Origin: Arenicola marina
Taxonomy: Eukaryota > Annelida > Polychaeta > Arenicolidae
NCBI GenBank assembly: GCA_964019135.1
Contig: OZ025258.1
Location: forward strand, 8,327,961 to 8,391,960
DNA length: 64,000 bases
Reading direction: 5' to 3'
This document shows, one piece after another, positions 8,584-52,911 of the stretch; position 1 is the first letter of the stretch; every line of letters starts with the position of its first letter. The notes beneath the pieces are model-generated. The model saw only the letters and a program-made list of their open reading frames with translations, had not been told where the DNA came from and did no database searches. The position numbers and the translations under genes were made by a program.

Positions 8584-8725
8584 TGATGTTACCTCCCTTG
8601 TGGATAAGGGCCCATTACCATCTTTAGGGTTCAGGCGTAGGGTGTAGATTGCGCTCGGTGTCGGGTTGGGGTCAGGGTTAGGTACCCTCTTCTTCACCCG
8701 CCGCCTCACCTGCATTTCGGGTAAC
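8584..8725 (+). repeat. Left-edge divergent satellite monomer
   Basis: The first unit carries acctcccttgtggataaggg and ggttcaggcgtagggtgtag where core monomers usually have acctgcatttcgggtaacgg and ggtttaggtacagggggtag. The same second variant is found at the right edge (52,563-52,582). Confidence 0.75.
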
Positions 8726-11046
8726 GGCCGCCCGCTCTGTCAGTGCCACATCTGTACTATCCTTAGGGTTTAGGTACAGGGGGTAGATTGCGCTCGGGGT
8801 CGGGTTGGGGTCAGGGTTAGATACCCTCTTCAACCGCCGCCTCACCTGCATTTCGGGTAACGGCCGCCCGCTCTGTCAATGATACATCAGTACTATCCTT
8901 AGGGTTTAGGTACAGGGGTATATTGCGGTCGGGGTCGGGTTGGGGTCAGGGTTAGGTACCCTTTTTTTCACCCGCCGCTACACCTGCATTTCGGGTAACG
9001 GCCGCCCGCTCTGTTAATGCCACATCTGTACTATCCTTAGAGTTTATGTACAGGAGGGAGATTGCGCTCGGGGTCGGGTTGGGGTCAGGGTCAGATACCC
9101 TCTTCAACCGCCGCCTCACCTGCATTTCGGGTAAAGGCCGCCCGCTCTGTCAAAGCTACATCCGTACTATCCTTAGGGTTTAGGTACAGGGGGTATACTG
9201 CGCTCGAGGTCGGGTTGGGGTCAGGGTTAGGTACCCTCTTTTTCACCTGCCGCTACACCTGCATTTCGGGTAACGGCCGCCCGCTCTGTCAATGCCAGAT
9301 CTGTACTCTCCTTAGGGTTTAGGTACAGGGGGTAGATTGCGCTCGGGGTCGGGTTGGGGTCAGGGTTAGGTACCCTCTTTCTCACCCGCAGACTAACCTG
9401 CATTTCGGTTCAGGGCCGCCCGCTCTGTCAAGGCCACATCAGTACTATCTTTAGGGTTTAGGTACAGGGGGTAGATTGCGCTCGGGGTCGGGTTGGGGTC
9501 AGGGTTAGATACCCTCTTCAACCGCCGCCTCATCTGCATTTCGGGTAACGGCCGCCCGCTCTGTCAAAGCTACATCAGTACTATCCTTAGGGTTTAGGTA
9601 CAGGGGGTATATTGCGCTCGGGGTGGGGTTGGGGTCAGGGTTAGGTACCCTCTTTTTCACCCGCCGCTACACCTGCATTTCGGGTAACGGCCGCCCGCTC
9701 TGTCAATGCCACATCAGTACTATCGTTAGGGTTTAGGTACAAGGGGTAGATTGCGCTCGGGGTCGGGTTGGGGTCAGGGTTAGATACCCTCTTCAACCGC
9801 CGCCTCACCTGCATTTCGGGTAACGGCCGCCCGCTCTGTCAATGCTACATCAGTACTATCCTTAGGGTTCAGGTACAGGGGTTATATTGCGCTTGGGGTC
9901 AGGGTTAGGTACCCTCTTTTTCACCCGCCGCTACACCTGCATTTCGGTTAACGGCCGCCCGCTCTGTCAATACTACATCAGTACTATCCTTAGGGTTTAG
10001 CTACAGGGGGTATATTGCGCTCGGGGTCGGGTTGCGGTCAGGGTTAGGTACCCTCTTTTTCACCCGCCGCTACACCTGCATTTCGGGTAACGGCCGCCCG
10101 CTCTGTCAATGCCATATCCGTACTATCCTTAGGGTTTAGGTACAGGGGGTAGATTGCGCTCGGGGTCGGGTTGGGGTCAGGGTTAGGTACCCTCTTCTTC
10201 ACCCGCAACCTTACCTGCATTTCGGTTCACGGCCGCCCGCTCTGTCAATGCCACATCAGTACTATCTTTAGGGTGAAGGTACAGGGGGTAGATTGCGCTC
10301 GGGGTCGGGTTGGGGTCAGGGTTAGGTACCCTCTTTTTCACCCGCAGCCTAACCTGCATTTCGGTTCACGGCCGCCCGCTCTGTCAATGCCACATCGGTA
10401 CTATCCTGAGGGTTTATGTACAAGGGGTAGATTGCGCTCGGGGTCGGATTGGGGTCAGGGTTAGGTCCCCTCATCTTCAACCGCCGCCTCACCTGCATTT
10501 CGGGTAACGGCCGCCCGCTCTGTCAAAGCTACATTAGTACTATCCTTAGGGTTTAGATACAGGAGGTAGATTGCGCTCGGGCTCGGGTTGGGGTCAGGGT
10601 TAATTACCCTCCTTTTCACCCACAGCCTAACCTGCATTTCGCTTCACGGCCGCCAGCTCTGTCAATGCCACATCAGTACTATCCTTAGGGTTTAGGTACA
10701 GGTGGTAGATTGCGCTCGGGGTCGGGTTGGGGTCAGGGTTAGGTACCCTCTTTTTCACCCGCCGCTACACCTGCATTTCGGGTAATGGCCGCCCGCTCTG
10801 TGAATGCTACATCTGTAATATCCTTGGGGTTTAGGCACAGGGGGTAGATTGCGCTCGGGGTTGGGTTGGGGTCAGGGTTAGGTACCCTCTTGAACCGCCG
10901 CCTCACCTGCATTTCGGTTCACGGCCGCCCGCTCCGTCAAGGCCACATCAGTACTATCCTTAGGGTTTAAGTACAGGATGTAGATTGCGCTCGGGGTCGG
11001 GTTGGGGTCAGGGTTAGGGACCCTCTTTCTCACCCGCAGCCTAACC

Positions 11047-14000: not shown

Positions 14001-14899
14001 TACTATCCTTAGGGTATAGGCACAGGGGGTAGATTGCGCTCGGGGTCGGGTTGGGGTCAGGGTTAGGTTCCCTCTTTTTCACCCGCCGCTACACGTGCAT
14101 TTCGGGTAACGGCCGCCCACTCTGTCAATGCCACATCTGTACTATCTTTAGGGTTTAGGTACAGGGGGTAGATTGCGCTCGGGGCCGGGTAGGGGTCAGG
14201 GTTAGGTACCCTCTTTTTCACCCGCCGCTACACCTGCATTTCGGGTAGCGGCCGCCCGCTCGGTCAATGCCACATCTGTTCTATTCTTAGGGTTTAGGTA
14301 CAGGGGGTAGATTGCGCTCGGGGTCGGGTTGGGTTCAGGGTTAGGTACCCTCTTTTTCACCCGCCGCTACACCTGCATTTCGGGTAACGGCCGCCCGCTC
14401 TGTCAATGCTACATCAGTACTATCCTTATGGTTTAGGTACAGTGGGTAGATTGCGCTCGGGGTCGGGTTGGGGTCAGGGTTAGGTACCATCTTCTTCACC
14501 CGCTGCCTAACCTGCATTTCGGTTCACGGCCGCCCGCTCTGTCAATGCCACATCAGTACTATCCTTAGGGTTTAGGTACAGGGGATATATTGCGCTTGGG
14601 GTCCGGTTGGGGTCAGGGTTAGGTACCCTCGTCTTCACTCGCAGCCTAACCTGCTTTTCCTGTCACGGCCGCCCCCTCTGGCAATGCCATGTCAGCCCTA
14701 TCTTTAGGGTTTAGGTACAGGGGGTAGATTGCGCTCGGGGTCGGGTTGGGGTCAGGGTTAGGTGCCCTCTTTCTCACCCGCCGCCTAACCTGCATTTCGG
14801 TTCACGGCCGCCCGCTCTGTCAATGCCACATCAGTACTATCTTTAGGGTTTAGGTACAGGGGGTAGATTGCGCTCGGGGTCGGGTTGGGGTCAGGGTTA
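11047..14899 (+). repeat. Higher-order block X, copy 1 (3.85 kb)
   Basis: This block recurs at 20,380-24,232 with a constant offset of 9,333 bp. Diagnostic variants include the unusual monomer with gcagcctaacctgcttttcc (near 11,731 and 21,064). The end of homology was placed where the copies diverge after gggtcagggtta. Inside, a 5-monomer unit of 695 bp repeats: the agggtataggcacag variant is at 13,316 and 14,011. Confidence 0.85.
13200..14650 (+). repeat. Local 5-mer higher-order repeat, 695-bp period
   Basis: Five-monomer sets recur with the same order of variants. agggtataggcacag is at 13,316 and 14,011, and the catctgttctattcttaggg variant recurs at the same spacing. 695 is exactly 5 x 139. 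The boundaries are approximate. Confidence 0.7.
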
Positions 14900-15029
14900 G
14901 ATACCCTCTTCAACCGCCGCATCACCTGCATTTCGGGTGACGGCCGCCAGCTCTGCCAATGCCACATCAGTATTATCCTTAGGGTTTAGGTACAGGGGGT
15001 AGATTGCGCTCGGCGTCGGGTTGGGTTCA

Positions 15030-20210: not shown

Positions 20211-20379
20211 TTAGGTACCCTCTTTTTCACCCGCCGCTACACCTGCATTTCGGGTAATGGCCGCCCGCTCTGTGAATGCTACATCTGTAATATCCTTGGG
20301 GTTTAGGCACAGGGGGTAGATTGCGCTCGGGGTCGGGTTGGGGTCAGGGTTAGGTACCCTCTTGAACCGCCGCCTCACC

Positions 20380-23300: not shown

Positions 23301-24232
23301 TCACGGCCGCGCGCTCTGTCAATGCCACATCAGTACTATCCTTAGGGTATAGGCACAGGGGGTAGATTGCGCTCGGGGTCGGGTTGGGGTCAGGGTTAGG
23401 TTCCCTCTTTTTCACCCGCCGCTACACGTGCATTTCGGGTAACGGCCGCCCACTCTGTCAATGCCACATCTGTACTATCTTTAGGGTTTAGGTACAGGGG
23501 GTAGATTGCGCTCGGGGCCGGGTAGGGGTCAGGGTTAGGTACCCTCTTTTTCACCCGCCGCTACACCTGCATTTCGGGTAGCGGCCGCCCGCTCGGTCAA
23601 TGCCACATCTGTTCTATTCTTAGGGTTTAGGTACAGGGGGTAGATTGCGCTCGGGGTCGGGTTGGGTTCAGGGTTAGGTACCCTCTTTTTCACCCGCCGC
23701 TACACCTGCATTTCGGGTAACGGCCGCCCGCTCTGTCAATGCTACATCAGTACTATCCTTATGGTTTAGGTACAGTGGGTAGATTGCGCTCGGGGTCGGG
23801 TTGGGGTCAGGGTTAGGTACCATCTTCTTCACCCGCTGCCTAACCTGCATTTCGGTTCACGGCCGCCCGCTCTGTCAATGCCACATCAGTACTATCCTTA
23901 GGGTTTAGGTACAGGGGATATATTGCGCTTGGGGTCCGGTTGGGGTCAGGGTTAGGTACCCTCGTCTTCACTCGCAGCCTAACCTGCTTTTCCTGTCACG
24001 GCCGCCCCCTCTGGCAATGCCATGTCAGCCCTATCCTTAGGGTTTAGGTACAGGGGGTAGATTGCGCTCGGGGTCGGGTTGGGGTCAGGGTTAGGTGCCC
24101 TCTTTCTCACCCGCCGCCTAACCTGCATTTCGGTTCACGGCCGCCCGCTCTGTCAATGCCACATCAGTACTATCTTTAGGGTTTAGGTACAGGGGGTAGA
24201 TTGCGCTCGGGGTCGGGTTGGGGTCAGGGTTA
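20380..24232 (+). repeat. Higher-order block X, copy 2
   Basis: Copy of 11,047-14,899 at an offset of 9,333 bp with only scattered substitutions seen. It directly follows the truncated block Y, so a rearrangement junction lies at about 20,210-20,380. Confidence 0.85.
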
Positions 24233-26314
24233 ATTACCCTCCTTTTCACCCACAGCCTAACCTGCATTTCGCTTCACGGCCGCCAGCTCTGTCAATGCCA
24301 CATCAGTACTATCCTTAGGGTTTAGGTACAGGTGGTAGATTGCGCTCGGGGTCGGGTTGGGGTCAGGGTTAGGTACCCTCTTTTTCACCCGCCGCTACAC
24401 CTGCATTTCGGGTAATGGCCGCCCGCTCTGTGAATGCTACATCTGTAATATCCTTGGGCTTTAGGCACAGGGGGTAGATTGCGCTCGGGGTCGGGTTGGG
24501 GTCTGGGTTAGGTACCCTCTTGAACCGCCGCCTCACCTGCATTTCGGTTCACGGCCGCCCGCTCCGTCAAGGCCACATCAGTACTATCCTTAGGGTTTAG
24601 GTACAGGATGTAGATTGCGCTCGGGGTCGGGTTGGGGTCAGGGTTAGGGACCCTCTTTCTCACCCGCAGCCTAACCTGCATTTCGGTTCACGGCCGCCAG
24701 CTCTGTCAATGCCACATCAGTACTATCCTTAGGGTATAGGCACAGGGGGTAGATTGCGCTCGGGGTCGGGTTGGGGTCAGAGTTAGGTTCCCTCTTTTTC
24801 ACCCGCCGCTACACGTGCATTTCGGGTAACGGCCGCCCACTCTGTCAATGCCACATCTGTACTATCTTTAGGGTTTAGGTACAGGGGGTAGATTGCGCTC
24901 GGGGCCGGGTTGGGGTCAGGGTTAGGTACCCTCTTTTTCACCCGCCGCTACACCTGCATTTCGGGTAGCGGCCGCCCGCTCGGTCAATGCCACATCTGTT
25001 CTATTCTTAGGGTTTAGGTACAGGGGGTAGATTGCGCTCAGGGTCGGGTTGGGTTCAGGGTTAGGTACCCTCTTTTTCACCCGCCGCTACACCTGCATTT
25101 CGGGCAACGGCCGCCCGCTCTGTCAATGCTACATCAGTACTATCCTTATGGTTTAGGTACAGTGGGTAGATTGCGCTCGGGGTCGGGTTGGGGTCAGGGT
25201 TAGGTACCATCTTCTTCACCCGCTGCCTAACCTGCATTTCGGTTCACGGCCGCCCGCTCTGTCAATGCCACATCAGTACTATCCTTAGGGTTTAGGTACA
25301 GGATGTAGATTGCGCTCGGGGTCGGGTTGGGGTCAGGGTTAGGGACCCTCTTTCTCACCCGCAGCCTAACCTGCATTTCGGTTCACGGCCGCGCGCTCTG
25401 TCAATGCCACATCAGTACTATCCTTAGGGTATAGGCACAGGGGGTAGATTGCGCTCGGGGTCGGGTTGGGGTCAGGGTTAGGTTCCCTCTTTTTCACCCG
25501 CCGCTACACGTGCATTTCGGGTAACGGCCGCCCACTCTGTCAATGCCACATCTGTACTATCTTTAAGGTTTAGGTACAGGGGGTAGATTGCGCTCGGGGC
25601 CGGGTAGGGGTCAGGGTTAGGTACCCTCTTTTTCACCCGCCGCTACACCTGCATTTCGGGTAGCGGCCGCCCGCTCGGTCAATGCCACATCTGTTCTATT
25701 CTTAGGGTTTAGGTACAGGGGGTAGATTGCGCTCGGGGTCGGGTTGGGTTCAGGGTTAGGTACCCTCTTTTTCACCCGCCGCTACACCTGCATTTCGGGT
25801 AACGGCCGCCCGCTCTGTCAATGCTACATCAGTACTATCCTTATGGTTTAGGTACAGTGGGTAGATTGCGCTCGGGGTCGGGTTGGGGTCAGGGTTAGGT
25901 ACCATCTTCTTCACCCGCTGCCTAACCTGCATTTCGGTTCACGGCCGCCCGCTCTGTCAATGCCACATCAGTACTATCCTTAGGGTTTAGGTACAGGGGA
26001 TATATTGCGCTTGGGGTCCGGTTGGGGTCAGGGTTAGGTACCCTCGTCTTCACTCGCAGCCTAACCTGCTTTTCCTGTCACGGCCGCCCCCTCTGGCAAT
26101 GCCATGTCAGCCCTATCCTTAGGGTTTAGGTACAGGGGGTAGATTGCGCTCGGGGTCGGGTTGGGGTCAGGGTTAGGTGCCCTCTTTCTCACCCGCCGCC
26201 TAACCTGCATTTCGGTTCACGGCCGCCCGCTCTGTCAATGCCACATCAGTACTATCTTTAGGGTTTAGGTACAGGGGGTAGATTGCGCTCGGGGTCGGGT
26301 TGGGGTCAGGGTTA
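24233..26314 (+). repeat. 15-mer tandem duplication (2,082 bp)
   Basis: Repeats 22,151-24,232 at an offset of 2,082 bp, about 15 monomers. The unit with ggggatatattgcgcttggg is at 23,914 in the first copy and 25,996 in the second. Block Y follows directly. Confidence 0.85.
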
Positions 26315-35300: not shown

Positions 35301-36503
35301 GTTAGGTACCCTCTTCTTCACCGGCCGCCTAACCTGCATTTCGGTTCACGGCCGCCCGCTCTGTCAATGCCACATCAGTACTATCTTTAGGGTTTAGGTA
35401 CAGGGGGTAGATTGCGCTCGGGGTCGGGTTGGGGTCAGGGTTAGATACCCTCTTCAACCGCCGCATCACCTGCATTTCGGGTAACGGCCGCCCGCTCTGC
35501 CAATGCCACATCAGTACTATCCTTAGGGTTTAGGCACAGGGGGTAGATTGCGCTCGGGGTTGTGTTGGGGTCAGGATTAGGTACCCTCTTTCTCACCCGC
35601 AGCCTAACCTGCATTTCGGTTCACGGCCGCCCGCTCTGTCAATGCCACATCAGTACTCTCCTTTGGGGTTTAGGTACAGGGGGTAGATTGCGCTCGGGGT
35701 CGGGTTGGGGTCAGGGTTAGGTACCCTCTTGAACCGCCGCCTCACCTGCATTTCGGTTCACGGCCGCCCGCTCTGTCAATGCCACATCAGTACTCTCCTT
35801 TGGGGTTTAGGTACAGGGGGTAGATTGCGCTCGGGGTCGGGTTGGGGTCAGGGTTAGGTACCCTCTTTCTCACTCGCCGCTACACCTGCATTTCGGGTAA
35901 CGGCTGCCCGGTCTGTCAACGCCACATCTGTACTATCCTTAGGGTTTAGGTACAGGGGGTAGATTGCGCTCGGGGTCGGGTTGGGGTCAGGGTGAGGTAC
36001 CCTCTTTTTCTCCCGCCGCTACACCTGCATTTCGGGTAACGGCCGCCCGCTCTGTCAATGCCACATCTGTACTATCCTTAGGGTTTAGGTACAGGGGGTA
36101 GATTGCGCTCGGGGTCGGGTTGGGGTCAGGGTTAGGTACCCTCTTTTTCACCCGCCGCCTCACCTCCCTTGTGGATAAGGGCCGCCCGCTATGTTAATGC
36201 CACATCTGTACTATCCTCAGGGTTTAGGTACAGGGCGTAGAACCTGCATTTCGGGTAACGGCCGCCCGCTCTGTCAATGCCACATCTGTACTATCCTTAG
36301 GGTTTAGGTACAGGGGTAGATTGCGCTCAGGGTCGGGTTGGGGTCAGGGTTAGGTACCCTCTTTTTCACCCGCCGCCACACCTGCATTTCGGGCAACGGC
36401 CGCCCGCTCTGTCAATGCCACATCTGTACTATCCTTAGGGTTTAGGTACAGGGGGTAGAACCTGCATTTCGGGTAACGGCCGCCCGCTCTGTCAATGCCA
36501 CAT
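25969..36503 (+). repeat. Higher-order block Y, full copy 1 (10,535 bp)
   Basis: About 80 monomers, including many 80-bp deletion forms and the acctcccttgtggataaggg variants. It is followed immediately by a nearly identical copy at an offset of 10,535 bp. The junction lies inside a stretch shared by most monomers (gctctgtcaatgccacatc), so the boundaries are uncertain by some tens of bases. Confidence 0.9.
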
Positions 36504-39500
36504 CAGTACTATCCTTAGGGTTTAGGTACAGGGGATATATTGCGCTTGGGGTCCGGTTGGGGTCAGGGTTAGGTACCCTCGTCTTCACTCGCAGCCTAAC
36601 CTGCTTTTCCTGTCACGGCCGCCCCCTCTGGCAATGCCATGTCAGCCCTATCCTTAGGGTTTAGGTACAGGGGGTAGATTGCGCTCGGGGTCGGGTTGGG
36701 GTCAGGGTTAGGTGCCCTCTTTCTCACCCGCCGCCTAACCTGCATTTCGGTTCACGGCCGCCCGCTCTGTCAATGCCACATCAGTACTATCTTTAGGGTT
36801 TAGGTACAGGGGGTAGATTGCGCTCGGGGTCGGGTTGGGGTCAGGGTTAGGTACCCTCTTTTTCACCCGCCGCTACACCTGCATTTCGGGTAACGGCCGC
36901 CCGCTCTGTCAATGCTACATCTGTAATATCCTTAGGGTTTATGTACAGGGGATAGCTTGCGCTCGGGGTCGGGTTGGGGTCAGGGTTAGGTACCCTCTTT
37001 TTCACCCGCAGCCTAACCTGCATTTCGGGTAACGGCCGCCCGCTCTGTCAATGCCACATCTGTAATATCCTTAGGGTTTAGGTACAGGGGGTAGATTGCG
37101 CTCGGGGTCGGGTTGGGGTCAGGGTTAGGTACCCTCTTCTTCACCGGCCGCCTAACCTGAATTTCGGTTCACGGCCGCCCGCTCTGTCAATGCCACATCT
37201 GTACTATCCTTAGGGTTTAGGTACAGGGGATAGATTGCGCTCGGGGTCGGGTTGGGGTCAGGGTTAGGTACCCTCTTCTTCACCGGCCGCCTAACCTGCA
37301 TTTCGGTTCACGGCCGCCCGCTCTGTCAATGCCACATCTGTACTATCTTTAGGGTTTAGATACAGGGGGTAGATTGCGCTCGGGGTCGGTTTGGGGTCAG
37401 GGTTAGATACCCTATTTTTCTCCCGCCGCTACACCTGCACTTCGGGTAACGGCCGCCCGCTCTGTCAATGCCACATCTGTACTATCCTTAGGGATTAGGT
37501 ACAGGGGGTAGATTGCGCTCAGGGTCGGGTTGGGGTCAGGGTTAGGTATCCCTTTTTCACCCGCCGCCACTCCTGCATTTCGGGTAACGGCCGCCCGCTC
37601 TGTCAATGACACATCTGTACTATCCTTAGGGTTTATGTACAGGGGATAGCTTGCGCTCGGGGTCGGGTTGGGGTCAGGGTTAGGTACCTTCTTTTTCACC
37701 CGCAGCCTAACCTGAATTTCGCGTAACGGCCGCCCGCTCTGTCAATGCCACATCTGTACTATCCTTAGGGTTTAGGTACAGGGGGTAGATTGCGCTCGGG
37801 GTCGGGTTGGGGTCAGGGTTAGGTACCCTCTTTTTCTCCCGCCGCTACACCTGCATTTCGGGTAACGGCCGCCCGCTTTGTCAATGCCACATCTGTACTA
37901 TCCTTAGGGTTTAGGCACAGGGGGTAGATTGCGCTCGGGGTCGGGTTGGGGTCAGGGTTAGGTACCCTATTTTTCACCCGCCGCCTCACCTCCCTTGTGG
38001 ATAAGGGCCGCCCGCTATGTTAATGCCACATCTGTACTATCCTCAGGGTTTAGGTACAGGGGGTAGCTTGCGCTCGGGGTCTCGTTGTGGTCAGGGTTAG
38101 GTACCCTCTTTTTCTCCCGCCGCCACTCCTGCATTTCGGGTAACGGCCGCCCGCTCTGTCAATGACACATCTGTACTATCCTTAGGGTTTAGGTACACGG
38201 GGTAGATTGCGCTCGGGGTCGGGTAGGGGTCAGGGTTAGGTACCCTATTTTTCTCCCGCCGCCTCACCTCCCTTGCGGATTAGGGCCGCCCGCTATGTTA
38301 ATGCCACATCTGTACTATCCTTAGGGTTTAGGAACAGGGGGTAGATTGCGCTCGGGGTCGGGTTGGCGTCCGGGTTAGGTACCATCTTTTTCACCCGCCG
38401 CTACACTTGCATTTCGGGTAACGGCCGCCCGCTCTGTCAATGCCACATCTGTACTATCCTTAGGGTTTAGCTACAGGGGGTAGATTGCGCTCAGGGTCGG
38501 ATTGGGGTCAGGGTTAGGTATCCCTTTTTCACCCGCCGCCACACCTGCATTTCGGGTAATGGCCGCCCGATCCGTCAATGCCACATCTGTACTATCCTTA
38601 GGGTTTAGGTACAGGGGGTAGCTTGCGCTCGGGGTCTCGTTGTGGTCAGGGTTAGGTACCCTCTTTTTCTCCCGCCGCCACTCCTGCATTTCGGGTAACG
38701 GCCGCCCGCTCTGTCAATGACACATCTGTACTATCCTTAGGGTTTATGTACAGGGGATAGCTTGCGCTCGGGGTCGGGTTGGGGTCAGGGTTAGGTACCT
38801 TCTTTTTCACCCGCAGCCTAACCTGAATTTCGTGTAACGGCCGCCCGCTCTGTCAATGCCACATCAGTACTATCCTCAGGGTTGAGGTACAGGTGGTAGA
38901 TTGCGCTCGGCGTCGGTTTGGGGTCAGGGTTAGATACCCTCTTCAACCGCCGCATCACCTGCATTTCGGGTAACGGCCGCCCGCTCTGCCAATGCTACAT
39001 CAGTACTATCCTTAGGGCTTAGGCACAGGGGATAGATTGCGCTCGGCGTTGTTTTGGGGTCAGTGTTAGCTACCCTCTTTCTCACCCGCAGCCTAACCTG
39101 CATTTCGGTTCACGGCCGCCCGCTCTGTCAATGCCACATCAGTACTATCCTTTGGGGTTTAGGTACAGGGGGTAGATTGCGCTCAGGGGCGGGTTGGGGT
39201 CAGGGTTAGGTACCCTATTTTTCACCCGCCGCTACACCTGCATTTCGGGTAATGGCCGCCCGCTCTGTGAATGCCACATCTGTAATATCCTTCGGGTTTA
39301 GGTACAGGGGGTAGATTGCGCTCGGGGTCGGATTGGGGTCAGGGTTAGGTACCCTCTTTCTCACCCGCCGCTACACCTGCATTTCGGGTAACGGCTGCCC
39401 GGTCTGTCAACGCCACATCTGTACTATCCTTAGGGTTTAGGTACAGGGGGTAGAACCTGCATTTCGGGTAACGGCCGCCCGCTCTGTCAATGCCACATCT

Positions 39501-42500
39501 GTACTATCCTTAGGGTTTAGGTACAGGGGTAGATTGCGCTCAGGGGCGGGTTGGGGTCAGGGTTAGGTACCCTCTTTTTCACCCGCCGCCACACCTGCAT
39601 TTCGAGCAACGGCCGCCCGCTCTGTCAATGACACATCTGTACTATCCTTAGGGTTTAGGTACAGGGGGTAGAACCTGCATTTCGGGTAACGGCCGCCCGC
39701 TCTGTCAATGCCACATCTGTACTATCCTTAGGGTTTAGGTACAGGGGGTAGAACCTGCATTTCGGGTAACGGCCGCCCGCTCTGTCAATGCCACATCTGT
39801 ACTATCCTTAGGGTTTAGGTACAGGGGGTAGATTGCGCTCAGGGTCGGGTTGGGGTCAGGGTTAGGTACCCTCTTTTTCACCCGCCGCTACACCTGCATT
39901 TCGGGTAATGGCCGGCCGCTCTGTCAATGCCACATCTGTACTATCCTTAGGGTTTAGGTACAGGGGGTAGCTTGCGCTCGGGGTCTCGTTGTGGTCAGGG
40001 TTAGGTACCCTCTTTTTCTCCCGCCGCCACTCCTGCATTTCGGGTAACGGCCGCCCGCTCTGTCAATGACACATCTGTACTATCCTTAGGGTTTATGTAC
40101 AGGGGATAGCTTGCGCTCGGGGTCGGGTTGGGGTCAGGGTTAGGTACCCTCGTTTTCACCCGCAGCCTAACCTGCATTTCGGGTAAGGGCCGCCCGCTCT
40201 GTCAAGGTCACATCTGTACTATCCTTAGGGTTTAGGTACAGGGGGTAGATTGCGCTCGAGGTTGGGTTGGCGTCAGGGTTAGGTACCCTCTTTTTCACCC
40301 GCCGCTACACATGCATTTCGGGTAACGGCCGCCCGCTCTGTCAAAGCTACATTAGTACTATCCTTAGGGTTTAGGTACAGGAGGTAGATTGCGCTCGGGT
40401 TCGGGTTGGGGTCAGGGTTAGGTACCCTCCTTTTCACCCACAGCCTAACCTGCATTTCGGTTCACGGCCGCCCGCTCTGTCAATGCCACATCAGTACTAT
40501 CCTCAGGGTTGAGGTACAGGTGGTAGATTGCGCTCGGGTTCGGATTGGGGTCAGGGTTAGGTACCCTCTTTTTCACCCGCCGCTACACCTGCATTTCGGG
40601 TAATGGCCGCCCGCTCTGTGAATGCCACATCTGTAATATCCTTGGGGTTTACGTACAGGGGGTAGATTGCGCTCGGGGTCGGGTTGGGGTCACGGTTAGG
40701 TACCCTCTTGAACCGCCGCCTCACCTGCATTTCGGTTCACGGCCGCCCGCTCTGTCAATGCCACATCAGTACTCTCCTTTGGGGTTTAGGTACAGGGGGT
40801 AGATTGCGCTCGGGGTCGGGTTGGGGTCAGGGTTAGGTACCCGCTTTCTCACTCGCCGCTACACCTGCATTTCGGGTAACGGCTGCCCGGTCTGTCAACG
40901 CCACATCTGTACTATCCTTAGGGTTTAGGTACAGGGGGTAGATTGCGCTCGGGGTCGGGTTGGGGTCAGGGTTAGGTACCCTCTTTTTCTCCCGCCGCTA
41001 CACCTGCATTTCGGGTAACGGCCGCCCGCTCTGTCAATGCCACATCTGTACTATCCTTAGGGTTTAGGTACAGGGGGTAGATTGCGCTCGGGGTCGGGTT
41101 GGGGTCAAGGTTAGGTACCCTATTTTTCACCCGCCGCCTCACCTCCCTTGTGGATAAGGGCCGCCCGCTATGTTAATGCCACATCTGTACTATCCTCAGG
41201 CTTTAGGTACAGGGAGTAGAACCTGCATTTCGGGTAACGGCCGCCCGCTCTGTCAATGCCACATCTGTACTATCCTTAGGGTTTAGGTACAGGGGTAGAT
41301 TGCGCTCAGGGTCGGGTTGGGGTCAGGGTTAGGTACCCTCTTTTTCACCCGCCGCCACACCTGCATTTCGGGCAACGGCCGCCCGCTCTGTCAATGCCAC
41401 ATCTGTACTATCCTTAGGGTTTAGGTACAGGGGGTAGCTTGCGCTCGGGGTCTCGTTGTGGTCAGGGTTAGGTACCCTCTTTTTCTCCCGCCGCCACTCC
41501 TGCATTTCGGGTAACGGCCGCCCGCTCTGTCAATGACACATCTGTACTATCCTTAGGGTTTATGTACAGGGGATAGCTTGCGCTCGGGGTCGGGTTGGGG
41601 TCAGGGTTAGGTACCCTCGTTTTCACCCGCAGCCTAACCTGCATTTCGCGTAAGGGCCGCCCGCTCTGTCAAGGTCACATCTGTACTATCCTTAGGGCTT
41701 AGGTACAGGGGGTAGATTGCGCTCGAGGTTGGGTTGGCGTCAGGGTTAGGTACCCTCTTTTTCACCCGCCGCTACACATGCATTTCGGGTAACGGCCGCC
41801 CGCTCTGTCAAAGCTACATTAGTACTATCCTTAGGGTTTAGGTACAGCAGGTAGATTGCTCTCGGGTTCGGGTTGGGGTCAGGGTTAGGTACTCTCCTTT
41901 TCACCCACAGCCTAACCTGCATTTCGCTTCACGGCCGCCCGCTCTGTCAATGCCACATCAGTACTCTCCTTTGGGGTTTAGGTACAGGGGGTAGATTGCG
42001 CTCGGGGTCGGGTTGGGGTCAGGGTTAGGTACCCGCTTTCTCACTCGCCGCTACACCTGCATTTCGGGTAACGGCTGCCCGGTCTATCAACGCCACATCT
42101 GTACTATCCTTAGGGTTTAGGTACAGGGGGTAGATTGCGCTCGGGGTCGGGTTGGGGTCAGGGTTAGGTACCCTCTTTTTCTCCCGCCGCTACACCTGCA
42201 TTTCGGGTAACGGCCGCCCGCTCTGTCAATGCCACATCTGTACTATCCTTAGGGTTTAGGTACAGGGGGTAGATTGCGCTCGGGGTCGGGTTGGGGTCAA
42301 GGTTAGGTACCCTATTTTTCACCCGCCGCCTCACCTCCCTTGTGGATAAGGGCCGCCCGCTATGTTAATGCCACATCTGTACTATCCTCAGGCTTTAGGT
42401 ACAGGGGGTAGAACCTGCATTTCGGGTAACGGCCGCCCGCTCTGTCAATGCCACATCTGTACTATCCTTAGGGTTTAGGTACAGGGGTAGATTGCGCTCA

Positions 42501-45500
42501 GGGTCGGGAAGGGGTCAGGGTTAGGTACCCTCTATTTCACCCGCCGCCACACCTGCATTTCGGGCAACGGCCGCCCGCTCTGTCAATGCCACATCTGTAC
42601 TATCCTTAGGGTTTAGGTACAGGGGGTAGCTTGCGCTCGGGGTCTCGTTGTGGTCAGGGTTAGGTACCCTCTTTTTCTCCCGCCGCCACTCCTGCATTTC
42701 GGGTAACGGCCGCCCGCTCTGTCAATGACACATCTGTACTATCCTTAGGGTTTATGTACAGGGGATAGCTTGCGCTCGGGGTCGGGTTGGGGTCAGGGTT
42801 AGGTACCCTCGTTTTCACCCGCAGCCTAACCTGCATTTCGGGTAAGGGCCGCCCGCTCTGTCAAGGTCACATCTGTACTATCCTTAGGGTTTAGGTACAG
42901 GGGGTAGATTGCGCTCGAGGTTGGGTTGGCGTCAGGGTTAGGTACCCTCTTTTTCACCCGCCGCTACACATGCATTTCGGGTAACGGCCGCCCGCTCTGT
43001 CAAAGCTACATTAGTACTATCCTTAGGGTTTAGGTACAGGAGGTAGATTGCGCTCGGGTTCGGGTTGGGGTCAGGGTTAGGTACCCTCCTTTTCACCCAC
43101 AGCCTAACCTGCATTTCGCTTCACGGCCGCCCGCTCTGTCAATGCCACATCAGTACTATCCTCAGGGTTTAGGTACAGGTGGTAGATTGCGCTCGGGTTC
43201 GGATTGGGGTCAGGGTTAGGTACCCTCTTTTTCACCCGCCGCTACACCTGCATTTCGGGTAATGGCCGCCCGCTCTGTGAATGCCACATCTGTAATATCC
43301 TTGGGGTTTAGGTACAGGGGGTAGATTGCGCTCGGGGTCGGGTTGGGGTCAGGGTTAGGTACCCTCTTAAACCGCCGCCTTACCTGCATTTCGGTTCACG
43401 GCCGCCCGCTCTGTCAATGCCACATCAGTACTCTCCTTTGGGGTTTAGGTACAGGGGGTAGATTGCGCTCGGGGTCGGGTTGGGGTCAGGGTTAGGTACC
43501 CTCTTTTTCTCCCGCCGCTACACCTGCATTTCGGGTAACGGCCGCCCGCTCTGTCAATGCCACATCTGTACTATCCTTAGGGTTTAGGTACAGGGGGTAG
43601 ATTGCGCTCGGGGTCGGGTTGGGGTCAGGGTTAGGTACCCTCTTTTTCACCCGCCGCCTCACCTCCTTTGTGGATAAGGGCCGCCCGCTATGTTAATGCC
43701 ACATCTGTACTATCCTCAGGGTTTAGGTACAGGGGGTAGAACCTGCATTTCGGGTAACGGCCGCCCGCTCTGTCAATGCCACATCTGTACTATCCTTAGG
43801 GTTTAGGTACAGGGGTAGATTGCGCTCAGGGTCGGGTTGGGGTCGGGGTTAGGTACCCTCTTTTTCACCCGCCGCCACACCTGCATTTCGGGCAACGGCC
43901 GCCCGCTCTGTCAATGCCACATCTGTACTATCCTTAGGGTTTAGGTACAGGGGGTAGAACCTGCATTTCGGGTAACGGCCGCCCGCTCTGTCAATGCCAC
44001 ATCTGTACTATCCTTAGGGTTTAGGTACAGGGGGTAGATTGCGCTCAGGGTCGGGTTGGGGTCAGGGTTAGGTACCCTCTTTTTCACCCGCCGCCTCACC
44101 TGCATTTCGGGTAATGGCCGGCCGCTCTGTCAATGCCACATCTGTACTATCCTTTGGGTTTAGGTACAGGGGGTAGCTTGCGCTCGGGGTCTCGTTGTGG
44201 TCAGGGTTAGGTACCCTCTTTTTCTCCCGCCGCCACTCCTGCATTTCGGGTAACGGCCGCCCGCTCTGTCAATGACACATCTGTACTATCCTTAGGGTTT
44301 ATGTACAGGGGATAGCTTGCGCTCGGGGTCGGGTTGGGGTCAGGGTTAGGTACCCTCGTTTTCACCCGCAGCCTAACCTGCATTTCGGGTAACGGCCGAA
44401 CGCTCTTTCAATGCCACATCTGTACTATCCTTAGGGTTTAAGCACAGGGCGTAGATTGCGCTCGGGGTCGGGTTGGGGTCAGGGTTAGGTACCCTCTACT
44501 TCACCGGCCGCATAACCTGCATTTCGGTTCACGGCCGCCCGCTCTGTCAATGCCACATCAGTACTATCCTTAGGGCTTAGGCACAGGGGATAGATTGCGC
44601 TCGGGGTTGTTTTGGGGTCAGTGTTAGGTACCCTCTTTCTCACCCGCAGCCTAACCTGCATTTCGGTTCACGGCCGCCCGCTCTGTCAATGCCACATCAG
44701 TACTCTCCTTTGGGGTTTAGGTACAGGGGGTAGATTGCGCTCGGGGTCGGGTTGGGGTCAGGGTTAGGGACCCTCTTTCTCACTCGCCGCTACACCTGCA
44801 TTTCGGGTAACGGCTGCCCGGTCTGTCAACGCCACATCTGTACTATCCTTAGGGTTTAGGTACAGGGGGTAGATTGCGCTCGGGGTCGGGTTGGGGTCAG
44901 GGTGAGGTACCCTCTTTTTCTCCCGCCGCTACACCTGCATTTCGGGTAACGGCCGCCCGCTCTGTCAATGCCACATCTGTACTATCCTTAGGATTTAGGT
45001 ACAGGGGGTAGATTGCGCTCGGGGTCGGGTTGGGGTCAGGGTTAGGTACCCTCTTTTTCACCCGCCGCCTCACCTCCCTTGTGGATAAGGGCCGCCCGCT
45101 ATGTTAATGCCACATCTGTACTATCCTCAGGGTTTAGGTACAGGGCGTAGAACCTGCATTTCGGGTAACGGCCGCCCGCTCTGTCAATGCCACATCTGTA
45201 CTATCCTTAGGGTTTAGGTACAGGGGTAGATTGCGCTCAGGGTCGGGTTGGGGTCAGGGTTAGGTACCCTCTTTTTCACCCGCCGCCACACCTGCATTTC
45301 GGGCAACGGCCGCCCGCTCTGTCAATGCCACATCTGTACTATCCTTAGGGTTTAGGTACAGGGGGTAGAACCTGCATTTCGGGTAACGGCCGCCCGCTCT
45401 GTCAATGCCACATCTGTACTACCCTTAGGGTTTAGGTACAGGGGGTAGAACCTGCATTTCGGGTAACGGCCGCCCGCTCTGTCAATGCCACATCTGTACT

Positions 45501-47038
45501 ATCCTTAGGATTTAGGTACAGGGGGTAGCTTGCGCTCGGGGTCTCGTTGTGGTCAGGGTTAGGTACCCTCTTTTTCTCCCGCCGCCACTCCTGCATTTCG
45601 GGTAACGGCCGCCCGCTCTGTCAATGACACATCTGTACTATCCTTAGGGTTTATGTACAGGGGATAGCTTGCGCTCGGGGTCGGGTTGGGGTCAGGGTTA
45701 GGTACCCTCGTTTTCACCCGCAGCCTAACCTGCATTTCGGGTAACGGCCGCCCGCTCTTTCAATGCCACATCTGTACTATCCTTAGGGTTTAGGCACAGG
45801 GGGTAGATTGCGCTCGGGGTCGGGTTGGGGTCAGGGTTAGGTACCCTCTTCTTCACCGGCCGCCTAACCTGCATTTCGGTTCACGGCCGCCCGCTCTGTC
45901 AATGCCACATCAGTACTATCTTTAGGGTTTAGGTACAGGGGGTAGATTGCGCTCGGGGTCGGGTTGGGGTCAGGGTTAGATACCCTCTTCAACCGCCGCA
46001 TCACCTGCATTTCGGGTAACGGCCGCCCGCTCTGCCAATGCCACATCAGTACTATCCTTAGGGTTTAGGCACAGGGGGTAGATTGCGCTCGGGGTTGTGT
46101 TGGGGTCAGGGTTAGGTACCCTCTTTCTCACCCGCAGCCTAACCTGCATTTCGGTTCACGGCCGCCCGCTCTGTCAATGCCACATCAGTACTCTCCTTTG
46201 GGGTTTAGGTACAGGGGGTAGATTGCGCTCGGGGTCGGGTTGGGGTCAGGGTTAGGTACCCTCTTGAACCGCCGCCTCACCTGCATTTCGGTTCACGGCC
46301 GCCCGCTCTGTCAATGCCACATCAGTACTCTCCTTTGGGGTTTAGGTACAGGGGGTAGATTGCGCTCGGGGTCGGGTTGGGGTCAGGGTTAGGTACCCTC
46401 TTTCTCACTCGCCGCTACACCTGCATTTCGGGTAACGGCTGCCCGGTCTGTCAACGCCACATCTGTACTATCCTTAGGGTTTAGGTACAGGGGGTAGATT
46501 GCGCTCGGGGTCGGGTTGGGGTCAGGGTGAGGTACCCTCTTTTTCTCCCGCCGCTACACCTGCATTTCGGGTAACGGCCGCCCGCTCTGTCAATGCCACA
46601 TCTGTACTATCCTTAGGGTTTAGGTACAGGGGGTAGATTGCGCTCGGGGTCGGGTTGGGGTCAGGGTTAGGTACCCTCTTTTTCACCCGCCGCCTCACCT
46701 CCCTTGTGGATAAGGGCCGCCCGCTATGTTAATGCCACATCTGTACTATCCTCAGGGTTTAGGTACAGGGCGTAGAACCTGCATTTCGGGTAACGGCCGC
46801 CCGCTCTGTCAATGCCACATCTGTACTATCCTTAGGGTTTAGGTACAGGGGTAGATTGCGCTCAGGGTCGGGTTGGGGTCAGGGTTAGGTACCCTCTTTT
46901 TCACCCGCCGCCACACCTGCATTTCGGGCAACGGCCGCCCGCTCTGTCAATGCCACATCTGTACTATCCTTAGGGTTTAGGTACAGGGGGTAGAACCTGC
47001 ATTTCGGGTAACGGCCGCCCGCTCTGTCAATGCCACAT
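36504..47038 (+). repeat. Higher-order block Y, full copy 2 (10,535 bp)
   Basis: Tandem copy of 25,969-36,503. Reading the two side by side I noticed only isolated single-base differences, such as 32,309 against 42,844 and 35,576 against 46,111. Within its right part a further duplication at a 1,626-bp offset repeats 44,700-45,700 at 46,326-47,330; the same pattern is present in full copy 1. Confidence 0.9.
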
Positions 47039-50000
47039 CTGTACTACCCTTAGGGTTTAGGTACAGGGGGTAGAACCTGCATTTCGGGTAACGGCCGCCC
47101 GCTCTGTCAATGCCACATCTGTACTATCCTTAGGATTTAGGTACAGGGGGTAGCTTGCGCTCGGGGTCTCGTTGTCGTCAGGGTTAGGTACCCTCTTTTT
47201 CTCCCGCCGCCACTCCTGCATTTCGGGTAACGGCCGCCCGCTCTGTCAATGACACATCTGTACTATCCTTAGGGTTTATGTACAGGGGATAGCTTGCGCT
47301 CGGGGTCGGGTTGGGGTCAGGGTTAGGTACCCTCGTTTTCACCCGCAGCCTAACCTGCATTTCGGGTAACGGCCGCCCGCTCTGTCAATGCCACATCAGT
47401 ACTATCCTTAGGGTTTAGGTACAGGGGGTAGATTGCGCTCGGGGTCGGGTTGGGGTCAGGGTTAGATACCCTCTTCAACCGCCGCATCACCTGCATTTCG
47501 GGTAACGGCCGCCCGCTCTGCCAATGCCACATCAGTACTATCCTTAGGGTTTAGGCACAGGGGGTAGATTGCGCTCGGGGTTGTGTTGGGGTCAGGGTTA
47601 GGTACCCTCTTTCTCACCCGCAGCCTAACCTGCATTTCGGTTCACGGCCGCCCGCTCTGTCAATGCGACATCAGTACTATCCTTTGGGGTTTAGGTACAG
47701 GGGGTAGATTGCGCTCGGCGTCGGGTTGGCGTCAGGGTTAGGTACCCTATTTTTCACCCGCCGCCTCACCTCCCTTGTGGATAAGGGCCGCCCGCTCTGT
47801 CAAGGCCACATCTGTACTATCCTTAGGGTTTAGGTACAGGGGGTAGAGTGCGCTCGAGGTTGGGTTGGCGTCAGGGTTAGGTTCCCTCTTTTTCACCCGC
47901 CGCTACACATGCATTTCGGGTAACGGCCGCCCGCTCTGTCAAAGCTACATTAGTACTATCCTTAGGGTTTAGGTACAGGAGGTAGATTGCGCTCGGGTTC
48001 GGGTTGGGGTCAGGGTTAGGTACCCTCTTTCTCACCCGCAGCCTAACCTGCATTTCGGTTCACGGCCGCCCGCTCTGTCAATGCCACATCAGTACTATCC
48101 TTTGGGGTTTAGGTACAGGGGGTAGATTGCGCTCGGGGTCGGGTTGGGGTCAGGGTTAGGTACCCTATTTTTCACCCGCCGCTACACCTGCATTTCGGGT
48201 AATGGCCGCCCGCTCTGTGAATGCCACATCTGTAATATCCTTGGGGTTTAGGTACAGGGGGTAGATTGTGCTCGGGGTCGGATTGGGGTCAGGGTTAGGT
48301 ACCCTCTTTCTCACCCGCCGCTACACCTGCATTTCGGGTAACGGCTACCCGGTCTGTCAACGCCACATCTGTACTATCCTTAGGGTTTAGGTACAGGGGG
48401 TAGATTGCGCTCGGGGTCGGGTTGGGGTCAGGGTTAGGTACCCTCTTTTTCTCCCGCCGCTACACGGGCATTTCGGGTAACGGCCGCCCGCTCTGTCAAT
48501 GCCACATCTGTACTATCCTTAGGGTTTAGGTACACGGGGTAGCTTGCGCTCGGGGTCTCGTTGTGGTCAGGGTTAGGTACCCTCTTTTTCTCCCGCCGCC
48601 ACTCCTGCATTTCGGATAACGGCCGCCCGCTCTGTCAATGACACATCTGTACTATCCTTAGGGTTTATGTACAGGGGATAGCTTGCGCTCGGGGTCGGGT
48701 TGGGGTCAGGGTTAGGTACCTTCTTTTTCACCCGCAGTCTAACATGAATTTCGGGTAACGGCCGCCCGCTCTGTCAATGCCACATCTGTACTATCCTTAG
48801 GGTTTAGGTACAGGGGGTAGATTGCGCTCGGCGTCGGTTTGGGGTCAGGGTTAGATACCCTCTTCAACCGCCGCATCACCTGCATTTCGGGTAACGGCCG
48901 CCCGCTCTGCCAATGCCACATCAGTACTATCCTTAGGGCTTAGGCACAGGGGATAGATTGCGCTCGGGGTTGTTTTGGGGTCAGTGTTAGGTACCCTCTT
49001 TCTCACCCGCAGCCTAACCTGCATTTCGGTTCACGGCCGCCCGCTCTGTCAATGCCACATCAGTACTATCCTTTGGGGTTTAGGTACAGGGGGTAGATTG
49101 CGCTCGGCGTCGGTTTGGGGTCAGGGTTAGATACCCTCTTCAACCGCCGCATCACCTGCATTTCGGGTAACGGCCGCCCGCTCTGTCAAAGCTACATTAG
49201 TACTATCCTTAGGGTTTAGGTACAGGAGGTAGATTGCGCTCGGGTTCGGGTTGGGGTCAGGGTTAGGTACCCTCCTTTTCACCCACAGCCTAACCTGCAT
49301 TTCGCTTCACGGCCGCCCGCTCTGTCAATGCCACATCAGTACTATCCTTAGGGTTTAGGTACAGGTGGTAGATTGCGCTCGGGTTCGGGTTGGGGTCAGG
49401 GTTAGGTACCCTTTTTTTCAACCGCCGCTACACCTGCATTTCGGGTAATGGCCGCCCGCTCTGTGAATGCCACATCTGTAATATCCTTGGGGTTTAGGTA
49501 CAGGGGGTAGATTGCGCTCGGGGTCGGGTTGGGGTCAGGGTTAGGTACCCTCTTGAACCGCCGCCTCACCTGCATTTCGGTTCACGGCCGCCCGCTCTGT
49601 CAATGCCACATCAGTACTATCCTTTGGGGTTTAGGTACAGGGGGTAGATTGCGCTCAGGGTCGGGTTGGGGTCAGGGTTAGGTACCCTCTTTTTCACCCG
49701 CCGCTACACCTGCATTTCGGGTAATGGCCGCCCGCTCTGTCAATGCCACATCTGTACTATCCTTAGGGTTTAGGTACAGGGGGTAGCTTGCGCTCGGGGT
49801 CTCGTTGTGGTCAGGGTTAGGTACCCTCTTTTTCTCCCGCCGCCACTCCTGCATTTCGGGTAACGGCCGCCCGCTCTGTCAATGACACATCTGTACTATC
49901 CTTAGGGTTTATGTACAGGGGATAGCTTGCGCTCGGGGTCGGGTTGGGGTCAGGGTTAGGTACCCTCGTTTTCACCCGCAGCCTAACCTGCATTTCGGGT

Positions 50001-52560
50001 AACGGCCGCCCGCTCTTTCAATGCCACATCTGTACTATCCTTAGGGTTTAGGCACAGGGGGTAGATTGCGCTCGGGGTCGGGTTGGGGTCAGGGTTAGGT
50101 ACCCTCTTCTTCACCGGCCGCCTAACCTGCATTTCGGTTCACGGCCGCCCGCTCTGTCAATGCCACATCAGTACTATCTTGAGGGTTTAGGTACAGGGGG
50201 TAGATTGCGCTCGGGGTCGGGTTGGGGTCAGGGTTAGATACCCTCTTCAACCGCCGCATCACCTGCATTTCGGGTAACGGCCGCCCGCTCTGCCAATGCC
50301 ACGTCAGTACTATCCTTAGGGTTTAGGCACAGGGGGTAGATTGCGCTCGGGGTTGTGTTGGGGTCAGGGTTAGGTACCCTCTTTCTCACCCGCAGCCTAA
50401 CCTGCATTTCGGTTCACGGCCGCCCGCTCTGTCAATGCGACATCAGTACTATCCTTTGGGGTTTAGGTACAGGGGGTAGATTGCGCTCGGCGTCGGGTTG
50501 GCGTCAGGGTTAGGTACCCTATTTTTCACCCGCCGCCTCACCTCCCTTGTGGATAAGGGCCGCCCGCTCTGTCAAGGCCACATCTGTGCTATCCTTAGGG
50601 TTTAGGTACAGGGGGTAGATTGCGCTCGAGGTTGGGTTGGCGTCAGGGTTAGGTTCCCTCTTTTTCACCCGCCGCTACACATTGATTTCGGGTAACGGCC
50701 GCCCGCTCTGTCAAAGCTACATTAGTACTATCCTTAGGGTTTAGGTACAGGAGGTAGATTGCGCTCGGGTTCGGGTTGGGGTCAGGGTGAGGTACCCTCC
50801 TTTTCACCCACAGCCTAACCTGCATTTCGCTTCACGGCCGCCCGCTCTGTCAATGCCACATCAGTACTATCCTTAGGGTTTAGGTACAGGTGGTAGATTG
50901 CGCTCGGGTTCGGGTTGGGGTCAGGGTTAGGTACCCTCTTTTTCACCCGCCGCTACACCTGCATTTCGGGTAATGGCCGCCCGCTCTGTGAATGCCACAT
51001 CTGTAATATCCTTGGGGTTTAGGTACAGGGGGTAGATTGCGCTCGGGGTCGGGTTGGGGTCAGGGTTAGGTACCCTCTTGAACCGCCGCCTCACCTGCAT
51101 TTCGGTTCACGGCCGCCCGCTCTGTCAATGCCACATCAGTACTATCCTTTGGGGTTTAGGTACAGGGGGTAGATTGCGCTCGGGGTCGGGTTGGGGTCAG
51201 GGTTAGGTACCCTATTTTTCTCCCGCCGCTACACCTGCATTTCGGGTAACGGCCGGCCGTTCTGTCAATGCCACATCTGTACTATCCTTAGGGTTTAGGT
51301 ACAGGGGGTAGATTGCGCTCGGGGTCGGGTTGGCGTCAGGGTTAGGTACCCTCTTTTTCACCCGCCGCTACACCTGCATTTCGGGTAACGGCCGCCCGCT
51401 CTGTCAATGCCACATCTGTACTATCGTTAGGGTTTAGGTACAGGGGGTAGAACCTGCATTTCGGGTAACGGCCGCCCGCTCTGTCAAAGCTACATTAGTA
51501 CTATCCTTAGGGTTTAGGTACAGGATGTAGATTGCGCTCGGAGTCGGGTTGCGGTCAGGGTTAGGTATCCTCTTTCTCACCCGCAGCCTAACCTGCATTT
51601 CGGTTCACGGCCGCGCGCTCTGTCAATGCCACATCAGTACTATCCTTAGGGTGTAGGCACAGGGGGTAGATTGCGCTCGGGGTCGGGTTGGGGTCAGGGT
51701 TAGGTACCCTCTTTTTCACCCGCCGCTACACGTGCATTTCGGGTAACGGCCGCCCACTCTGTCAATGCCACATCTGTACTATCCTTAGGGTTTAGGTACA
51801 GGGGGTAGATTGCGCTCGGGGTCGGGTTGGGTTCAGGGTTAGGTACCCTCTTTTTCACCCGCCGCTACACCTGCATTTCGGGTAACGGCCGCCCGCTCTG
51901 TCAATGCTACATCAGTACTATCCCTAGGGTTTAGGTACAGGGGGTAGATTGCGCTCGGGGTCGGGTTGGGGTCAGGGTTAGGTACCCTCTTCTTCACCCG
52001 CTGCCTAACCTGCATTTCGGTTCACGGCCGCCCGCTCTGTCAATGCCACATCTGTACTATCCTTAGGGTTTAGGTACAGGGGGTAGAACCTGCATTTCGG
52101 GTAACGGCCGCCCGCTCTGTCAATGCCACATCTGTACTATCCTTAGGGTTTAGGTACAGGGGGTAGATTGCGCTCGGGGTCGGGTTGGGGTCAGGGTTAG
52201 GTACCCTCTTTTTCACCCGCCGCTACACCTGCATTTCGGGTAACGGCCGCCCGCTCTGTCAATGCTACATCAGTACTATCCTTAGGGTTTAGGTACAGGG
52301 GGTAGATTGCGCTCGGGGTCGGGTTGGGGTCAGGGTTAGGTACCCTCTTTTTCACCCGCAGCCTAACCTGCATTTCGGTTCGCGGCCGCTCGCTCTGTCA
52401 TTGCCACATCAGTACTATCCTCAGGGTTAAGGTACAGGGGGTAAATATTGCGCTCGGGGTCGGGTTGGGGTCAGGGTTAGATACCCTCTTCAACCGCCGC
52501 CTCACCTCCATTTCGGGTATCGGCCGCCCGCTTTCTTAAGCCACATCATTACTATCTTCA
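47039..52560 (+). repeat. Mosaic right part of the satellite array
   Basis: Monomer types known from blocks X and Y appear in new orders. For example, about 640 bp from 47,390 resembles the segment from 50,162, and variants around 49,229 recur near 50,752. No single long duplication explains it. Confidence 0.7.
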
Positions 52561-52885
52561 TGGTTCAGGCGTAGGGTGTAGATTGCGCTCGGGGTCGGGT
52601 TGGGGTCAGGGTTAGGTACCTTTTATTTTTCACCCGCCGCGTCACTTCCCTAGTGCATAAGGGCCGCCCGCTCTCTTAAGCCACATCATTACCATGTTTA
52701 CGGTTCAGGCGTGCGGTGTAGACTACATTCAGGGTTAGGTTGGGATCAGGGTTAGGTACCCTCTTTCTCACCCGCCGCTACACCTCCATTTCGGGTAAGG
52801 GCCGCCCGCTCTGGCAAGGCCATATCATGATTATCTTCAGGGTTCATGCGTACGGTGTAGATGACGCTGAGCGCTGGGTTGGTGG
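52561..52885 (+). repeat. Right-edge divergent satellite monomers
   Basis: The last units decay progressively. They carry ggttcaggcgtagggtgtag (as at the left edge), cttccctagtgcataaggg, and ctctcttaagccacatcatt in place of ctctgtcaatgccacatctg. The final recognisable piece ends at about 52,885, just before the inverted-repeat element. Confidence 0.8.
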
Positions 52886-52911
52886 GTCGATTAAATACCC
52901 AGCAAACACCT

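Follow-up and report, generated by a model that had tools for sequence, protein, structure and literature searches.

A 44-kb satellite array of Arenicola marina is the interior of a DNA transposon with terminal inverted repeats

Our study examined a stretch of 64,000 nucleotides from the genome of the polychaete Arenicola marina (assembly GCA_964019135.1, contig OZ025258.1, positions 8,327,961 to 8,391,960; referred to here as the window, and as C11:8327961-8391960 in our contig numbering), which contains an array of a 139-bp satellite on the + strand at positions 8584-52885. This array is the interior of a DNA transposon of 56,779 bp (4103-60881). A first-pass annotation made from the sequence of the window had recognized the array itself, yet missed that it lies inside a transposon. 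It is very probable that the element is a giant, non-autonomous cut-and-paste transposon with terminal inverted repeats (TIRs), mobilized in trans, in which the satellite was already an array before some of the copies dispersed and was resized later.

Structure of the element

The transposon has a 27-bp TIR at each end, GGTCCATCTTCCATGTAAGCCGTCACG on the left (4103-4129, + strand) and GGTCGTTCTTCCATGTAAGCCGTCACG on the - strand on the right (60855-60881). It is read on the + strand, its termini follow the pattern GGTC...GACC (also written GGTC...CTTCCATGTAAGCC), and it is flanked by an 8-bp target-site duplication (TSD), CATCTCGG, which is identical at 4095-4102 and 60882-60889. Its limits were taken from the TIR pair together with the limits of homology shared with other loci. 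On the 5' side, homology to six other loci on four contigs begins at window position 4095-4103 in every case, and the 4.5-kb left flank of these loci is 99.0-99.6% identical to the window. On the 3' side, homology with L028 stops at 60881 (L-numbers denote genomic stretches fetched for comparison).

Two subterminal arrays of 42-bp repeats lie approximately 250-320 bp inside the ends, one on the left (4350-5729, - strand) and one on the right (56714-60558, + strand). They are in opposite orientation and mostly 69-79% alike, and therefore constitute long inverted ends of tandem repeats, as in foldback elements. Between these arrays and the satellite are a unique left interior (5730-8615, + strand), which falls within the 4.5-kb flank common to the six other copies, and a unique right interior (55738-56713, + strand), with homology extending to L017 at 98.5% identity (55738-56908) and to L028 at 95.6% (55738-56515). 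The right side additionally carries a nested insertion of 2.84 kb (52898-55737) with short inverted ends (CCCAGC.../...GCTGGG) and a TA duplication at 52896-52897 and 55738-55739; this insertion is absent from L017 and L028, the latter having an uninterrupted site. It holds minisatellites of its own, with periods of 50 bp and 22 bp.

No recognizable protein is encoded by the window copy. All 31 open reading frames (ORFs) of at least 95 codons in its non-satellite parts, including those of the left interior at 5730-8615, were without a Pfam family at the cut-off, and ten ORFs in the 42-bp arrays gave weak matches below the cut-off, with no transposase among them. The element is filed as non-autonomous because no recognizable transposase occurs in this copy. 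The length of the 42-bp repeat is a multiple of three, which yields long open frames of up to 311 codons encoding a 14-residue repeat (4184-5738 and 57496-60767).

A dispersed family with target-site duplications

A search of the genome (867 Mb in 762 contigs) with the 21-bp core of the TIR found 74 matches at ≤1 mismatch, compared with 0 for the reversed control. These matches included 27 convergent neighbouring pairs spanning 1.2-87.3 kb (median 24.0 kb, sum 863 kb), a count that is a lower bound for the size of the family; the other neighbours within 150 kb were one divergent and two same-strand. A perfect 8-bp TSD was found at 26 of the 27 pairs, and the remaining pair, C1:71.5, had a single mismatch (copies are labelled by contig and position in Mb). 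The 27 TSD sequences were all different, and mispaired controls produced no duplication at ≤1 mismatch in 702 combinations. The family therefore combines 27-bp terminal inverted repeats with a TSD of fixed length at dispersed sites, which places it among the TIR DNA transposons, and matched ends with 8-bp TSDs at dispersed sites are the signature of cut-and-paste insertion. The smallest copy, of 1.2 kb, retains both ends, part of the 42-bp repeats and a perfect TSD, and has no satellite. Movement would accordingly seem not to depend on the satellite, unless this copy lost it later.

Arrays of the satellite family were present on many contigs among the matches listed. A 19-base probe from the satellite had 2784 exact matches in the genome, of which 190 were in the window, and since these 190 correspond to 332 units, the genome would contain roughly 4900 units.

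Unit order and array length

Six copies were compared through order-preserving alignment of their first 60 units (~8 kb). Between C3:54.4 and C12:18.4, 58 of 60 units were aligned with a mean identity of 99.84%, compared to 88% for random units of both, and blocks of identical units continued as far as unit 80. Similarly, 57 units were aligned at 99.4% between C3:54.4 and C5:34.1, and 55 units at 99.0% between the window and C5:34.1. Shuffling the order of the units gave a negative score in 10/10 pairs that did not involve the window. Ordered, near-identical units on different chromosomes indicate that an array of at least ~8 kb predates the dispersal of some copies.

The lengths of the copies are far less uniform. 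The window copy and the six copies with 99-99.6% alike left flanks measure 19.2, 33.5, 41.3, 52.4, 55.5, 56.8 and 60.4 kb. Within the window, a tandem segment at 25924-47069 (+ strand) comprises two copies of 10.6 kb (25924-36534 and 36459-47069) that are 99.93% identical, which is either recent large-scale growth of the array or an assembly duplicate. This repeated segment and the spread of 19-60 kb among copies that are ~99% alike indicate that array length changes quickly, and we infer that the lengths changed after the array had been carried to its sites.

Alternative explanations

A number of results weigh against the account given above. Twenty of the 74 TIR matches were left unpaired by the neighbouring-pair rule. 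Among 100 listed probe matches out of the 2784, all of them on C1, 80 were inside TIR pairs and 20 were at three places without a listed pair (11.80, 19.08 and 62.19 Mb), so not all of the satellite lies inside intact elements. The pattern of C3:49.3 was weaker than that of the best pairs, with 49-52 units aligned at 97-98% identity to the four copies other than C1:44.8, and C1:44.8 itself aligned at only 37-46 of 60 units with all five partners, with scores of -3.2 to 0.6. Carriage of an ordered array is accordingly established for some copies and over ~60 units (8 kb), not over 44 kb. Finally, the searches revealed neither a transposase nor an autonomous partner, although a transposase gene whose introns leave short exons would escape detection.

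The satellite outside listed TIR pairs would be expected if this were an ordinary stand-alone satellite that arose and spread through unequal crossing-over or on extrachromosomal circles and bears a quadruplex motif by chance, with no transposon involved. Growth within the array is also clear, for example in the 10.6-kb duplication and in an 80-bp unit that has been amplified. However, reintegration of circles would not yield matching 27-bp inverted ends and 8-bp TSDs up to tens of kilobases apart, as seen in 26 of 27 copies, nor would it carry near-identical unique flanks. This explanation is contradicted by the TSD result for the 27 paired copies, and we regard it as highly improbable. The places with satellite and no TIR pair may instead be decayed or truncated copies. 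At C13:9.96 Mb (L078), a match to the 3' end only was a fragment of 121 bp, and the 4.9 kb retrieved there held no second end to pair with it.

A second alternative is that the element carried a short internal repeat when it inserted, each array expanding later and independently at its own site. The wide variation in length among copies with ~99% alike left flanks would fit such a history, as would C1:44.8, which has little unit order in common with the others; its scores nevertheless exceeded those of shuffled order where computed, and this copy is much rearranged. In contrast, the first 60 units agree in order and identity across several chromosomes and hence predate dispersal, which contradicts independent expansion for those units only. 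Taken as a whole, independent expansion appears rather unlikely.

The preferred explanation, an array already present in the transposon before some dispersal and resized afterwards, can be set out as a sequence of events. A transposase encoded elsewhere, and probably supplied in trans, would recognize the 27-bp inverted ends, perhaps aided by the inverted 42-bp subterminal repeats, and would excise the element along with any satellite between the ends before inserting it at staggered 8-bp cuts. The satellite would already have been a multi-kilobase array when some copies reached different chromosomes. After insertion, the array would grow and shrink by gains and losses of units and by blocks of up to ~10 kb, probably through unequal exchange or repair. 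A stronger version, in which single cut-and-paste events moved whole arrays measuring tens of kilobases, within elements as long as 87 kb, and were the main route of spread, and in which G-quadruplex (G4) richness on one strand aided growth through copy gain by repair or replication around transposition, is put forward as a tentative possibility.

The G-quadruplex motif

Most units of the satellite carry a potential quadruplex-forming motif. Tandem Repeats Finder (TRF) reported a tandem array of 139-bp period starting at 8616, and anchored segmentation of 8584-52885 resolved 332 units, comprising 300 of full length, 31 of 80 bp and one edge unit. When the motif was defined as four runs of three or more Gs separated by loops of 1-7 bases, the array contained 205 non-overlapping matches on the + strand and 0 on the - strand; restricting the loops to ≤3 bases left 194 and 0, respectively. 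Dinucleotide shuffles of the array (n=100) gave a mean of 25.3 and a maximum of 38 matches under the first definition, and a mean of 5.4 and a maximum of 10 under the second. The first-pass annotation had described more than 300 units with motifs numbering in the hundreds, borne by most units of a ~44-kb satellite and all on the same strand. These descriptions hold, as does its consensus G block, which was recovered as GGGGTCGGGTTGGGGTCAGGG, although "most" is a modest majority: 62% of all units (205/332) bear the motif and 38% do not. The motif was found in 205 of the 300 full units and in 97 of the 149 distinct full units. The G block is missing from all 31 short units, in which the deletion removing it has one common junction (31/331 complete units). 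The short units all end at this identical junction, so a single loss of the block was probably amplified to 31 copies.

A specially conserved quadruplex was not supported. The comparison of substitution inside and outside the G-runs, set beforehand as the check, came out against it, as substitution in the runs is about as frequent as elsewhere in the unit. Across the 149 distinct full units of the window, mean substitution was 0.062 in the 14 G-run columns, 0.064 in the rest of the unit and 0.030 in the loops, with permutation P values of 0.54 when all columns were used and 0.65 when only G columns were. Adding eleven other array stretches to the window raised the number of distinct full units to 545, with short units excluded, and gave 0.047 for G-runs, 0.024 for loops, 0.067 for the rest and 0.071 for other G columns (P=0.27 over all columns and 0.12 among G columns). 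In this larger set, the four outer Gs of the two four-base runs changed at 0.0468 and the ten other run Gs at 0.0473, meaning that spare Gs change as fast as needed ones. A quadruplex under selection is expected to have loops that are freer than its runs, and here the G-runs were not more conserved than the loops and flanks.

It could still be proposed that the quadruplex is functional and kept by selection, for example through replication pausing, R-loops or the seeding of heterochromatin on one strand. The motif is retained in 62% of window units and in 54-79% of full units in the eleven other array stretches, the opposite strand lacks it in every full unit tested, and its G4Hunter score exceeds that of telomere DNA (2.29 for the 21-mer block, compared with 1.64 for a 22-mer of the telomere repeat). 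In addition, 62% of distinct window units have an intact block, where independent columns would give 51%, and this leans toward conservation, as does the P value of 0.12 among G columns in the larger set. However, shared descent of units can cause such an excess of intact blocks, and the rates in other parts of the unit predict a range of 20-77%, which includes 62%. Set against a functional role are G-runs whose conservation does not significantly exceed that of the remainder of the unit, loops that are more conserved than the runs, outer Gs of the four-base runs that are no freer than the remaining run Gs, and the amplification to 31 copies of a unit without the block. We therefore consider a selected quadruplex improbable. 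The unit sequences do not show selection on the quadruplex, and the motif is most likely a passenger inherited with the monomer, which could nonetheless make the array more prone to changes in copy number.

As to the source of the block, an ungapped comparison with (GGGTTA)4 matched at 20 of 24 positions, a value reached by 0 of 2000 shuffled monomers and by 24 of 5000 control sequences that kept the G-runs but had randomized loops. One reading takes the block for a degenerate tract of telomeric (TTAGGG)n within the monomer and derives the satellite from an interstitial stretch of telomere repeats. The rarity of so good a match among the controls speaks for this reading, whereas the tract would amount to only about four degenerate units, and a G-rich sequence is able to mimic the telomere repeat. 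Such an origin appears doubtful, and on sequence grounds the likeness is a lead on origin only, pointing to a possible telomeric source of part of the monomer.

Candidate sources of the transposase

The superfamily of the element was left unassigned, although its ends fit Merlin. Merlin/IS1595 elements are described as having TIRs of 24-462 bp that end in 5'-GG and TSDs of 8 or 9 bp (PMC8101967), and the GGTC ends and 8-bp TSD found here agree with both features. Two Merlin-like genes (DDE_Tnp_IS1595) occur in the genome. The 6.0-6.5 kb retrieved around either gene contained nothing that convincingly matched the TIRs; some short inverted matches beside the gene on C20 were judged by eye to belong to an AT-rich minisatellite of ~14 bp and were rejected.

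Zisupton elements likewise make 8-bp TSDs (PMC12730594), and the genome has 34 KDZ matches. None of these was in a TIR pair, 27 having been checked and seven being on contigs without a listed pair. No sequence was common to the window outside the array and the four KDZ loci fetched, in stretches that fall short of the element ends. These four loci (L073-L076, at C11:27.57, C11:5.28, C3:54.41 and C3:13.48 Mb) are long related copies, 94-99.8% alike and up to 99.8% over 8 kb, that contain the KDZ-type transposase matches together with 76-bp tandem arrays. The genome therefore has another transposon family, besides that of the window, that is associated with tandem arrays.

The 22 genomic hAT matches were also absent from the 27 TIR pairs, so that the Merlin, KDZ and hAT matches all lie outside them; a hAT gene elsewhere with similar ends was not sought. 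The transposase families searched were thus Merlin, KDZ and hAT, none of which was linked to the element, with P-type and Mutator not searched. A looser TIR search (16-mer with one mismatch), which returned 96 matches and one in the reversed control, contained no obvious small autonomous pair by eye.

Surroundings of the element in the window

Minisatellites surround the transposon at 400-919, 60885-61533, 62781-63038 and 63099-63566, and the element abuts the edge of one with a 49-bp period. Just outside the transposon, at 1435-1620, a frame resembles by eye a signal-peptide exon with a GT splice donor at its end. Also outside it is an inverted repeat of ~245 bp (86%) at 2505-2749 and 3055-3294, perhaps another small transposon. 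A scan of the whole window against Rfam at gathering thresholds gave no match, and no tRNA was found in the window. Elsewhere in the assembly, the mitochondrial contig (C762) reads TGA as Trp. Its frames on one strand were assigned in turn to cox1, then cox2, cox3, cob, atp6 and nad5 in L011, and nad4, nad1, nad3 and a nad2-like frame in L010, an arrangement typical of annelids; a frame at the position of nad6 was without a Pfam match.

Comparison with known elements and significance

Helitrons are without TIRs and make no TSD, whereas both are present in the Arenicola element, and CACTA elements make TSDs of 3 bp. Both groups include elements with tandem repeats inside them. Two reports describe Helitrons or Helentrons as mobile elements with central satellite-like arrays (PMC5139131, PMC12628747), the second also treating miniature inverted-repeat transposable elements (MITEs) with internal arrays. 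A CACTA element of Chenopodium quinoa, Jozin, has a satellite array of a 171-bp unit inside a DNA transposon, but it is 16.5 kb long with an array of 5.55 kb, includes a coding region and is a single described case, as far as the part of the report seen extends (PMC8978399).

A parallel may be drawn with Tetris of Drosophila virilis, a foldback transposon from whose internal repeats a satellite arose. Tetris is a non-autonomous TIR element with no conserved ORFs, internal tandem repeats and TSDs of 8-10 bp; it differs in having a few ~220-bp units within long TIRs and three structurally complete copies reported (PMC4079207). The Arenicola element, by comparison, has a different unit in a central array of 44 kb, 27 paired copies that reach 87 kb in length and a TSD of 8 bp throughout. 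Teratorn, a piggyBac-type element of fish, is also giant (41-182 kb) with short TIRs (18 bp), but it consists largely of herpesvirus genes and has its own transposase (PMC6431247), whereas the bulk of the Arenicola element is satellite and no transposase was recognized. Merlin/IS1595 shares with it the GG ends and 8-bp TSDs (PMC8101967), while no Merlin transposase was recognized in the window copy. The resemblance to Zisupton lies in the 8-bp TSDs (PMC12730594), together with the KDZ genes that stand beside 76-bp arrays in this genome.

The Arenicola family differs from all of these in being mostly satellite, in the number of cleanly bounded copies and in having an order of units that is shared between sites. 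We found no report of this element, nor of TIR transposons consisting mainly of tens of kilobases of satellite, in the open-licence literature, and no paper on satellite DNA monomers of polychaetes in the same literature.

The movement of satellites between non-homologous chromosomes is a long-standing question, for which most evidence has been indirect. The matched ends, the exact 8-bp TSD in 26 of 27 copies and the unit order kept between some sites provide direct evidence for satellite dispersal. As the array is the interior of a mobile element with relatives on many chromosomes, long arrays can spread inside such an element. If the reading of carriage in single events is true, the satellite would be a true mobile unit, and if cut-and-paste transposition carries arrays this large, then satellite dispersal, array growth and genome expansion would become datable and testable copy by copy. 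Our results also suggest that a mobile element can spread a dense G4 landscape even if the G4 itself is not under selection.

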